Source of the DNA: a bacterium | GTDB lineage: Bacteria; Hinthialibacterota; Hinthialibacteria; Hinthialibacterales; Hinthialibacteraceae | Direction of reading: 5' to 3' | DNA: 64,000 bases | Assembly (NCBI GenBank): GCA_016125385.1 | Contig: WGLV01000043.1 | Span: 1 to 64,000, forward strand | Shown here: piece after piece, positions 26,679 to 57,218 of the stretch | Position numbering within the stretch: position 1 is the first letter of the stretch | Layout of the letters: every line of letters starts with the position of its first letter | The notes under the pieces: model-generated | Told to the model about the DNA's origin: nothing | Databases searched by the model: none | Seen by the model: only the letters and a program-made list of their open reading frames with translations | Position numbers and translations under genes: made by a program

Positions 26679-27353
26679 TCATGATGGCGGAGCCTGATGG
26701 CCCGTACTTAATCGGACGATAATGCCCGAAGACACAACTCCATTGCTCGGATCGTACCAGGTGCTGGATGGAACCGGCTCCAGCATGTGAAAACCGATAT
26801 CTTCTTTTGGAACGGGGCCAATGCTCCAGAAGCCGTATTCAACGGGGCTTTGACTGGCTTTGTGTTCCGCGGAGGCGTTGTTATAAAAAACGTACTCTCC
26901 ATTATCGACGGGAAACCCGGTTGGAACCCATATGCCTTCTTCCGTGGGCATTCCATTAAAATACCCGAATCCTGGCCTGCGATACTTGATGGTTTGACCG
27001 GGCGCCTCGGTCGATGCGCCCGGAAACGTGTAGAACGGATCAAGCGGCCGCTCGGCGAGATAGGCTGTGGGCGTGGTCAGTTCCCACGGAAGTTCAAAAT
27101 ATTTTTTAGCGGTTTCTTCACCCCACGCAAGACAGTGATACCGGGTTGGAGGCAGCGCGCCGCGATCGATACGGTAACTTTCAATCGCGGTGACGCACGC
27201 GGCGATATTGGCCCGGGCGGCGGCGATTTTTCCCTTCACCCGAGCCTGCATAAAGTTGGGCAGCGCGATAACTGCGAGCACGCCGATGATGGAGACCGCG
27301 ATCAGCAGCTCGATCAGCGTGAACGCCCCGTTAACGGTACAGCGCCCAGTCAT
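26679..27353 (-). CDS. Type II secretion/type IV pseudopilin, third copy
   Basis: 224 residues. Leader ends NGA just before FTLIELLIAVSIIGVLA, with Glu at +5, so cleavage would follow Ala. The helix continues to PNFMQAR. The globular domain keeps LTTPTAYLAERPLDPF and the C-terminal YDPSNGVVSSGIIV, the same signatures as the pilins at 1286 and 2021. I start at the ATG at 27353, 23 bases inside the end of the preceding gene; an earlier ATG (27383) would give a longer leader. Overlap implies translational coupling with the secreted protein upstream. Confidence 0.82.
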   Translation of the reverse strand: MTGRCTVNGAFTLIELLIAVSIIGVLAVIALPNFMQARVKGKIAAARANIAACVTAIESYRIDRGALPPTRYHCLAWGEETAKKYFELPWELTTPTAYLAERPLDPFYTFPGASTEAPGQTIKYRRPGFGYFNGMPTEEGIWVPTGFPVDNGEYVFYNNASAEHKASQSPVEYGFWSIGPVPKEDIGFHMLEPVPSSTWYDPSNGVVSSGIIVRLSTGHQAPPS

Positions 27354-28122
27354 GAGAAGAACTCGCCGCGGGCTTGAAATCATCTATCGATCGGGGCCAC
27401 AGCTGATAACCCTCCGTGAAGGGGGGGGCGACGTCTTCCTGGTTGAAGACGCCGGTCACGTCGAGACGTCCCTCTGGCTGAGGCGAATCGGCGATCTTCG
27501 TCGCGAAACGCAACGGCGCCGAAAGCGTCGCGCCGTTTGAATCGACGAGCGTGACCGAACCGCCATTCACCCATTCGCCTTGGCTGATTTCCACATCGCG
27601 CACGGTAACCAGACAGCCCTGATACCGCTCAGCGCCGGTGGAGCGCGTTGCGTCGAAGAGATTTAACAAACTCAAATCGTCAATCACAAACGGCGCGGGC
27701 GCTATACCATGAGACAGAATTGTGATTTCCAATTTCTGATCGGGGTTGTGGCGTTCGTTCATGTTGGTCTGCCCCCCATAGTGACCGGTCAGCCCGGTGA
27801 CGCGCACGCGGTCACCCTGAAGAACCTCGGGATAATTAGCGAGCCCACTTCCGTACCATGACCCGGCATACGCTTCGATGCCACCGGTATCGTCTTGAAT
27901 AAACAGGATGAGCGATGTCTCTCCCTCTGAGTTAAATACTCCGCCATCGTTCAGAGCGATTCCCTCGATGGTGTAGCGATCGGTGGTTTGAAGACCGGCG
28001 AAGGTGGGTTCTCCATTCGCGTCGACGGTGTTGATCTCAGCGATGGGGATGACGGTCTGTGCAAGCGATGAACTGGTAACAGCAAAAGCGAACAAAAGGC
28101 AAAACGGAATTCGTAGCGTCAT
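27331..28122 (-). CDS. Secreted OB-fold/DUF5689-like protein ending in WALYR
   Basis: 263 residues. The ATG at 28122 follows AGAGG and opens a clear signal peptide (MTLRIPFCLLFAF, ending SLAQ). The mature part looks like one or two OB-fold-like beta domains: ILFIQDDTGGIEAYAG, LQGDRVRVTGLTGHYGG, RYQGCLVTVRDVEISQG and VTLVDSNGATLSAPLRF are typical of the OB-fold-like regions found next to nuclease or lamin-tail domains in secreted proteins. No catalytic domain is present. The last residues are HDWALYR, one of five W-x-x-Y tails in this window. It is the first gene of a four-gene unit and its end overlaps a pseudopilin gene. Confidence 0.65.
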   Translation of the reverse strand: MTLRIPFCLLFAFAVTSSSLAQTVIPIAEINTVDANGEPTFAGLQTTDRYTIEGIALNDGGVFNSEGETSLILFIQDDTGGIEAYAGSWYGSGLANYPEVLQGDRVRVTGLTGHYGGQTNMNERHNPDQKLEITILSHGIAPAPFVIDDLSLLNLFDATRSTGAERYQGCLVTVRDVEISQGEWVNGGSVTLVDSNGATLSAPLRFATKIADSPQPEGRLDVTGVFNQEDVAPPFTEGYQLWPRSIDDFKPAASSSHDWALYR

Positions 28123-28218
28123 AATGCGGCCTCTCATATTATGATTTTAATTTTCGTAATACTAGCACGATGGCCATATGATCGAAAGGGAGTGCATGGA
28201 ATTTTTTTTAAAAATCGA

Positions 28219-28260
28219 TTGACGCAGCGCGGAGACCGTACTACTGTACTAGCAATACAG
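28219..28260 (+). promoter_or_regulatory. Promoter and palindromic operator of the GntR-ABC operon
   Basis: TTGACG (28219-28224) is a good -35. At 17 bases spacing stands a poor -10, TACTGT (28242-28247). Overlapping it, CTGTA (28244-28248) and TACAG (28256-28260) form an inverted repeat. YtrA-type GntR regulators usually repress their own operon by binding such a site over the -10. Confidence 0.45.
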
Positions 28261-28286
28261 CACACCAATACACTGGAGACGGCGCC

Positions 28287-55113: not shown

Positions 55114-56109
55114 TTAAGCGATCTTGTTGATCAGGTCGACGACGCGGTTGGAGAAGCCGCATTCGTTGTCGTACCAGGACAGGATCTTCACGAAGTTGCC
55201 GTCGATGACGCGGGTGTAGCCCGGGTCGAAGATCGACGACAGCGGGTTGCCGATGAAGTCGGTCGAAACCAGCGGCGCTTCTTCGTAACCCAGAATGCCC
55301 TTCAGCGCGCCTTGCGAAGCGGCCTTGACGGCGGCGTTGATCTCATCGGCGGTGGCGGCCTTGTTCAGTTCGACCGTCAGGTCGACCACCGAAACGTCCG
55401 GGGTCGGGACGCGAACCGCGAAACCGTCCAGTTTGCCGGCCAGATCGGGAATAACCAGGCTGATCGCGGCGGCGGCGCCGGTTTTGGTCGGAATCATGCT
55501 CATGGCGGCGGCGCGGGCGCGGCGCAGGTCTTTGTGAGGCAGGTCGAGAATGGCCTGATCGTTGGTGTAGGAGTGAATGGTGGTCATCAGGCCGCGCTTG
55601 ATTCCCCAGCCGTCGTTCAACACCTTGGCGACGGGCGCGAGGCAGTTGGTGGTGCAGGAGGCGTTGGAGAGCACGTCGTGCTTCGACGCGTCATACATAT
55701 CTTCATTGACGCCCATGACGATGGTCACATCGGCGTTTTTGGAGGGCGCGCTGATGATGACCTTTTTGGCGCCGGCGGTCAGGTGAGCGGCGGCCTTTTC
55801 GCGGTCGGTGAAGATGCCGGTCGATTCAACCACGATCTCCGCGCCCAGGGACGACCAGGGGAGCTTCGACGGATCGCGTTCGGCCGAAACCGGAATCTTT
55901 TTGCCGTCGATGACGATCGCGTCGCCGTCGGCTTTGACTTCGCCCTTGTAGATGCCGTGGACGGAGTCGTATTTAAACAGGTGAGCCAGGGTTTTCGAGT
56001 CGGTCAGATCGTTCACGCCGACGATTTCAATGCCGCCCTTCGCCAACGCGGCGCGGGTGACCAGACGGCCGATGCGGCCAAATCCGTTGATACCGATTTT
56101 CACTGCCAT
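55114..56109 (-). CDS. gap: Glyceraldehyde-3-phosphate dehydrogenase, type I
   Basis: 331 residues from the ATG at 56109, preceded by GGAGGA. N-terminal Rossmann motif [12 protein letters not shown]; catalytic Cys in [13 protein letters not shown] (about 150); His in [10 protein letters not shown]-terminal [15 protein letters not shown]. Homotetrameric cytosolic enzyme that makes 1,3-bisphosphoglycerate, the substrate of the pgk product downstream. First gene of the gap-pgk-secG unit. Confidence 0.97.
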
Positions 56110-56338
56110 GTTGTTCCTCCTGTGCGTCAATAGTCGCAGAGATGCACGTCTTGAATGGCGTCAATATGTTGAGCATACGCGCCGTGTTTACGAACTCATT
56201 CAGACTGAACGCCTTCGCGCCAGTCAAACGGGTATGGTACACGCGGGTTGGCCAAAACCGAAGGCGGGGAACGCGCGGGGCGGGATTCTTACGAAAAACT
56301 TACAGAGAATACATGGCTTAGAGCTGGAGACGCCTTTG

Positions 56339-56384
56339 CGCCGCAAGACGCCGAGGCGAACGAGCGCCCCGGCGTCTTGCGGCG
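56339..56384. terminator. Long perfect hairpin after the FGE-like gene
   Basis: CGCCGCAAGACGCCG (56339-56353) and CGGCGTCTTGCGGCG (56370-56384) form a perfect 15-bp stem, extended inside by GGCG/CGCC. It lies four bases after the stop codon of the minus-strand gene, so it probably ends that transcript or protects its 3' end. No U-run follows on the minus strand. Confidence 0.6.
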
Positions 56385-56387
56385 GGT

Positions 56388-57218
56388 TTATTTATAGTCT
56401 TCCCATTTCTTGAGGAACGATTCGGGCGCGATCATGACGAGACGCATACCGTAATTATTGGGTCCTTCCGTTGGGACGCCAAACCGTAGTTTCGAGCAGC
56501 ATCCCCTATCCCCAACATTATTGTATGCGAAATTACATCCCGCAGTAATTTTAAATGACCCATTTGCGGGCCCTTGTGGATCAACGGCGGGTTCCGTCGG
56601 CCATGATTGATCGACCCAATCCTGACACCATTCACTTACCCCTCTGGCGGAATCGAATATTCCCCAGGCATTTGAAGTGTCCTGAGTAACCGGAAGCGGA
56701 ATACTACTGGCAGGATGCGTCGAAGCCGGCGTTGTCCCTCTCGGGATCGCATCCATCCAGCACTCGCTCTCCCCCGCTTTAAAGGCGTATTCCAGTTCGG
56801 CGCTGGTGGGAAGCCTGAACTCACCAACCCCCAAGCGGTTCAAACGGCCAACAAAGTCCTGGCATTCATACCAATTCACTAAGGTTTGGGGATAATTGTC
56901 TTGCTGGTTGATGGCCGTATGGGGAACACCGCCCGCGTAGGTCCAATGAGCCACCGTGACCTCATATTTGCTCAAAAAGAATGGATGCGTCAGCGTCACC
57001 TCGCAGGTTCTGGCGCCGAGTTGCATCGTGAACTTGCCGGGTGGAATCAGGACGAAATCGAGCGGAACGGCGCCTTCCGGCAGATCGGGAATATCGACGC
57101 GAACCTCGCGCATGCCGGTTTCGGGGTTCACGCCCAGATCGATCAGCTCGAAACTGTAAGTAGAGGGAATCAGCAGAGTAAAAGCCAGAATCGCCAGTAA
57201 CCGAGAAACGTTTTTCAT
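56388..57218 (-). CDS. Secreted FGE/SUMF1-like domain protein, C-terminal WEDYK
   Basis: 276 residues from the ATG at 57218. Signal peptide (MKNVSRLLAILAFTLLI, ending TYSF). The formylglycine-generating-enzyme-like fold is seen in FVLIPPGKFTM, THPFFLSKYEVTVAHW, YPQTLVNWYECQDFVGRLN, FRLPTSAELEYAFKAG, WGIFDSARGVSEWCQDW and NYGMRLVM. FGE catalytic Cys pairs are not clearly placed, so it is likely a non-catalytic or lectin-like member, as most secreted bacterial ones. The C-terminus KKWEDYK fits the W-x-x-Y tail. A perfect 15-bp hairpin follows. Confidence 0.78.
   Translation of the reverse strand: MKNVSRLLAILAFTLLIPSTYSFELIDLGVNPETGMREVRVDIPDLPEGAVPLDFVLIPPGKFTMQLGARTCEVTLTHPFFLSKYEVTVAHWTYAGGVPHTAINQQDNYPQTLVNWYECQDFVGRLNRLGVGEFRLPTSAELEYAFKAGESECWMDAIPRGTTPASTHPASSIPLPVTQDTSNAWGIFDSARGVSEWCQDWVDQSWPTEPAVDPQGPANGSFKITAGCNFAYNNVGDRGCCSKLRFGVPTEGPNNYGMRLVMIAPESFLKKWEDYK

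Follow-up and report, generated by a model that had tools for sequence, protein, structure and literature searches.

A shared tail on exported proteins

A 64,000-nucleotide stretch of contig WGLV01000043.1 (GenBank assembly GCA_016125385.1; the window), from a bacterium of the Hinthialibacterota, raises the question of why exported proteins of different families should share their last few residues. Exactly five stop-to-stop open reading frames of at least 60 amino acids, over all frames of the window, have a W..Y pair within their last 9 residues; they end in HDWALYR (gene at 27331), GEWDAYQ (34190), GEWSVY (35521), NGWMVY (39385), and KKWEDYK (56388). Each of the five proteins begins with a signal peptide of the Sec type, and their families differ, with Pfam placing three of them in DUF5689, GSDH, and FGE-sulfatase, respectively, while the 35521 and 39385 products have no Pfam match. 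The original prediction, made from the DNA letters alone, had listed these tails, signal peptides, and differing folds correctly and had proposed a short C-terminal tag that marks exported proteins and is unlike any described one. That proposal is strongly supported by an excess found among exported proteins only, by orthologues that keep the tag, and by its recurrence in a second lineage. The ending W-x-x-Y is real, but the true tag is longer, V-x-D-W-x-L-[Y/F], and four of the five tails are clearly good members of the tag family by their sequence. KKWEDYK may instead be a coincidental end, and the 56388 gene is probably outside the family. The features concerned are listed here, with bit scores under a matrix trained solely on the second lineage.

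27331 to 28137, minus strand: exported DUF5689 (OB-like) protein with tag (Pfam; signal peptide MRGRIMTLRIPFCLLFAFAVTSSSLAQ)
27334 to 27375, minus strand: linker and tag KPAASSSHDWALYR, C terminus of the DUF5689 protein (18.1 bits; DUF5689 ends at residue 253, tag Trp at about residue 264)
26679 to 27383, minus strand: pseudopilin gene overlapping the end of the tagged 27331 gene (GAFTLIELLIAV site; PF07963 N_methyl)
34190 to 35428, plus strand: exported GSDH (glucose/sorbosone dehydrogenase-like) protein (PF07995, 2.4e-46)
35405 to 35425, plus strand: tag GEWDAYQ, end of the GSDH propeller protein (9.0 bits)
35521 to 37062, minus strand: exported propeller-like protein, no Pfam family (probable start MRMKK)
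35524 to 35544, minus strand: tag VGEWSVY (12.7 bits; retained by the homologues from families f1, f2, and f4)
39385 to 40764, minus strand: exported propeller-like protein, no Pfam family (probable start MKKSIF)
39388 to 39408, minus strand: tag VNGWMVY (17.6 bits; orthologue ends compared)
56388 to 57218, minus strand: exported FGE-sulfatase-domain protein (PF03781, 1.6e-20)
56391 to 56411, minus strand: KKWEDYK tail of the FGE-like protein, a doubtful tag member (1.0 bit)

For the 35521, 39385, and 56388 genes, the start is likely an internal ATG (MRMKK near 37062, MKKSIF near 40764, and MKNVSRLL at 57218) rather than the first TTG.

The tag is found on exported proteins

The window's genome comprises 5.53 Mb in 77 contigs, from which we sampled stretches totaling 1.22 Mb and holding 902 genes, with genes and signal peptides called by home-made heuristic scripts. 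In this sample, W..Y followed by zero or one residue ended 14/387 exported proteins and 0/482 non-exported ones (Fisher P = 1e-5). In a first sample that included the window, no residue pair at exported C termini was more strongly enriched than Trp and Tyr at positions −4/−1 (and −5/−2), which reached 40 to 48 times expectation. Because the window's five tails prompted the question, the figures that count are those from outside it: W..Y ends on 9/357 exported proteins compared with ∼0.54 expected from the internal W..Y rate, and [DN]-W-x-hydrophobic-[YF] ends on 8 compared with 0.04 expected. By proportion, the genome may hold very roughly 60 to 80 tagged proteins.

With a threshold of 8 bits, the matrix trained on the second lineage picked out 18 exported proteins and no non-exported ones in the window's genome, against a mean of 0.2 for shuffled tails. 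In the opposite direction, a matrix from the window's class was applied with the same threshold to an unselected sample of genome G025, which belongs to the second lineage, and found 3 exported proteins and no non-exported ones. The original prediction had suggested comparing exported with cytosolic proteins and with shuffled ends, and both counts fell on its side. Two loci (L156 and L187) have convincing tags on proteins called non-exported, calls that probably stem from wrong starts.

Consensus of the tag

The 55 carriers that we gathered, of which L126 and L213 probably match by chance, fall into 38 homology clusters. Their consensus is [P]-[SAT]-[SGA]-V-x-D-W-x-L-[YF], with V in 36, D in 38, L in 40, Y in 45, and F in 10 carriers; nothing follows the final Y/F in 40/55, and a single residue (E, R, Q, K, or D) does so in 15/55. 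Since W was demanded when gathering carriers, its invariance among the 55 is no evidence; in homologues fetched without this criterion, it was nearly always retained. The stretch preceding the tag is rich in V, P, and S. The codons of the tag vary and the flanking DNA lacks conservation, so selection acts on the peptide, and a DNA-level element is ruled out.

A hydrophobic C terminus could also be an assembly or quality-control signal for a periplasmic PDZ chaperone or protease (DegP/DegS/Prc-like), with no export or anchoring machine involved. Most tails do finish in an aromatic carboxylate, as PDZ ligands often do, but 15 have an extra residue after it and the tail at L053 has four (HDWQLYHSNE). 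Moreover, the most conserved residues, W, D, and V, sit at −4, −5, and −7, distant from the carboxylate, and each genome has dozens of tagged proteins, mostly extracellular-type enzymes and adhesins. Given these features, we regard a PDZ signal as quite unlikely.

Modularity and conservation among homologues

The GSDH protein illustrates how the tag relates to the folded domain. The alignment to its PDB homologue stops at residue 398, and in the AlphaFold2 model the strands stop at residue 396, with the tag at residues 405 to 412 modeled as a short, low-confidence helix (pLDDT ∼57 to 69) outside the propeller. GSDH homologues from other phyla end where the propeller ends and have no tag, and some from Bacteroidota bear tails of the type IX secretion system (T9SS) type. 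In the window's class, homologues end in HDWQLYHSNE (L053) or RAQWAGYR, in a long P/T-rich linker plus SNWKVY, or in an extra domain plus SQWQLY. At L058, L059, and L062 (class-mates G011 and G012), dockerin-like repeat ends replace the tag.

Homologues of the 35521 protein end in VSQWSVY, VQDWSLY, VKNWDKY, VDTWELY, and VVEWSLY, among others, with variable linkers, and those of the 39385 protein in EHWSIY, DNWMTY, VDSWMLMD, SDWMIQ, and NDWNLF; the final Tyr is therefore less strict than the Trp. In both families the tag is retained while the linkers change, so the alignment of orthologue ends that had been suggested agrees with a tag.

These data bear on whether the ends are coincidental or remnants of one shared C-terminal domain. 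The tails were first spotted after the fact, and some carriers are paralogues (L008, L190, and L198), but a remnant of one domain is ruled out by the 38 homology clusters and by domain ends that lie before the tag. A chance origin is ruled out because the tag recurs in a sample from outside the window and in an independent lineage, itself a separate phylum. Chance or shared ancestry is thus extremely improbable; coincidence is refuted for the tag as a whole and possible for KKWEDYK at 56391. At L008 (5345 to 7646), tandem paralogues have identical tagged ends (VLARLQSGAQDWALYE), and the second reading frame begins inside the end of the first.

The carriers' domains are of surface type (LTD, CotH, FG-GAP, CBM9, F5/8, Kelch, and M23), which is in line with a noncovalent anchor, in which the aromatic tail would directly bind a cell-wall, S-layer, or outer-membrane component with no transport step. 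The linkers, too, resemble those of anchors, e.g., the long P/T-rich spacer at L056. Sequence alone cannot separate anchoring from sorting. The neighborhoods of the carriers showed no conserved binding partner, and we consider a direct anchor unlikely.

Spread across lineages

At the DNA level, each genome of the window's family and order contains the pattern [DN]-W-x-hydrophobic-Y-stop 12 to 33 times, and each of family f4 contains it 8 to 17 times, compared with 0 to 5 times per strand for the reversed pattern, used as a control. In a wider search of 337 genomes, f17 was the one other family that stood out. Its carriers, nearly all with signal peptides, end in INDWSLY, VGDWNLY, VSDWNLFE, VRDWALY, VQDWCLY, and the like. 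Across the phylum of f17, in counts that start from the D-W-x-L/F-Y pattern, 40 genomes contained 83 sites compared with 4 for the control. The distribution within this phylum is uneven: families f250 to f254, f256, and f17 have the tag, and f243 to f249 have almost none.

This phylum is the second phylum-level lineage (G025, G173, and G312 and their phylum; loci L179 to L189 and L213 to L232); related to that of the window at the domain level only, it has the same tag in a stricter form. Its genome G025 is one contig of 3,289,105 bases. Two further families, represented by G073 and G100, have 4 and 3 candidate D-W-x-[LF]-Y-stop sites in their DNA, respectively, and 0 control matches.

Pseudopilins, secretins, and the type II question

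The overlap between the 27331 gene and a pseudopilin gene, correctly noted in the original prediction, had been taken as a hint of a type II-like export route. Across the window's class, a same-strand pseudopilin neighbor is present at 8/35 tagged genes, this pair included, compared with 21/556 untagged exported genes (P = 1e-4), and at 4 among 29 more loci. Some tagged pairs share one pseudopilin, and the neighbor counts are therefore not independent. Secretins (PF00263) are found in 12/12 genomes, with 3 to 9 per genome. These observations fit a special case of the docking reading set out below, in which a cargo-adjacent pseudopilin would bring the cargo out by way of one secretin among several, with the tag serving as the recognition element. 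In the second lineage, however, 0/18 tagged genes have a pseudopilin neighbor, despite a clear tag; pseudopilins are few there (3/387 genes). The link is therefore not part of the core mechanism. Furthermore, known type II substrates have, to our knowledge, no linear C-terminal signal. The hint thus survives as a modest enrichment in the window's class but does not extend to the second lineage; a type II-like (secretin-type) exit for tagged proteins is only suggested, and we hold type II specificity to be rather doubtful.

Pseudopilin-like genes are abundant in the window's class (22/902 genes in the sample from the window's own genome) and often solitary beside exported proteins (26679 to 27383 in the window; L028, L035, L144, L151, and L176). 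Genome G000 has eight secretin domains, some of them side by side in pairs (C13:4879-6365), a hint at several type II/IV-pilus-like machines. Apart from pseudopilins, the one recurring neighbor of the carriers that could be a receptor candidate was a cluster to which the window's ABC ATPase (28676) belongs, a family too common to count. Next to the tagged 39385 gene, the opposite strand has genes for an ECF sigma factor and a FecR-type anti-sigma factor (41016 to 42609).

Comparison with known sorting systems

Among known systems, PEP-CTERM/exosortase resembles the tag in being C terminal, in marking many unrelated Sec-exported proteins at dozens per genome, and in following a Ser/Thr/Pro-rich spacer. 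PEP-CTERM, however, has a transmembrane helix and a basic tail, whereas the carriers' ends have no hydrophobic span or basic cluster. Exosortase (PF09721) was absent from G000, G001, G002, G005, and G006 of the window's order and from G025, and was found solely in G009, G010, G012, and G173. The C-terminal domain of T9SS (Por_Secre_tail, type A/B) is likewise a C-terminal signal on varied secreted proteins, and some Bacteroidota GSDH homologues carry such tails where the window's GSDH protein has the tag. Unlike that domain, the tag is ∼7 residues long and forms no folded domain, and in the GSDH protein it follows the propeller directly. SprA (PF14349) matched 0/8 tagged genomes and all three Bacteroidota positive controls, and Por_Secre_tail was absent among the 25 listed of the 31 families matched by 46 carriers.

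LPXTG/sortase also uses a C-terminal recognition motif on exported proteins, but the tag has neither LPXTG nor a membrane segment, and sortase (PF04203) matched 0/13 tagged or related genomes, with the controls B. subtilis, C. glutamicum, and L. lactis matched. Absence in searches whose controls worked thus rules out T9SS, sortase, and, for the window's order, exosortase. Type I secretion signals occur on proteins with no N-terminal Sec signal, which the carriers do have. The tag resembles GlyGly-CTERM/rhombosortase and MYXO-CTERM/myxosortase in being of the many-to-one kind; those tags direct proteins to the cell surface and combine a signature motif with a transmembrane segment and a basic tail (PMC3237569, PMC11980579). 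None of the 55 carriers has such a signature motif, transmembrane segment, or Arg-rich tail at its C terminus.

When 46 carriers were compared with Pfam/NCBIfam, no shared C-terminal tag appeared among the 25 listed of 31 Pfam families, in a search by HMMER, which has little power for motifs of 7 residues. The literature searched contained no description of the tag. As for the logic of such an address, peroxisomal PTS1 (-SKL), KDEL, and encapsulin cargo peptides are a few terminal residues on unrelated cargo that are read by a receptor. These act in the cytosol, the endoplasmic reticulum, or the encapsulin shell, whereas the cargo of the tag has Sec signal peptides.

A probable docking signal read after Sec export

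On the combined evidence, the tag is probably a C-terminal docking signal that acts after Sec export in delivery to, or anchoring at, the surface. The N-terminal Sec signal would take tagged proteins out of the cytoplasm. Beyond the inner membrane, a dedicated putative receptor would then recognize the exposed tail and deliver the cargo through the outer envelope or anchor it there. The tag would work as a docking peptide, neither a membrane anchor nor a folded secretion domain. The sequences themselves show the tag, that it is restricted to exported proteins, how it is conserved as a module, and how far it has spread; from these we infer recognition by a receptor and a surface or extracellular destination.

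Several points weigh against this reading. No receptor or enzyme was identified among the carriers' neighbors and the families searched, in the kind of search for a co-occurring sorting enzyme that the original prediction had advised. The final Tyr is sometimes swapped (H or Q) or trailed by residues, and recognition would therefore be loose; family f5 (G011) rarely has the tag; and the second lineage lacks the pseudopilin link. The export and gene calls rest on home-made heuristics, and the small samples from G010, G006, and G025 show an exported/non-exported contrast in the right direction that is non-significant in each alone.

PEP-CTERM and the T9SS tail had each opened up whole sorting systems. 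The present tag is shorter than either, lacks both a membrane anchor and a folded domain, and in lineages about which little is known marks enzymes and adhesins by the dozen per genome. A serious possibility, if one just short of probable, is that V-x-D-W-x-L-[Y/F]-COOH serves as the signal for an undescribed system of export or surface attachment that has a receptor of its own and is common to two phylum-level lineages without T9SS and, in the window's order, without exosortase. The patchy spread within one phylum offers a direct route to the matching machinery through presence and absence, and the tag provides a simple rule to predict which proteins of these bacteria may be at the surface or outside the cell.

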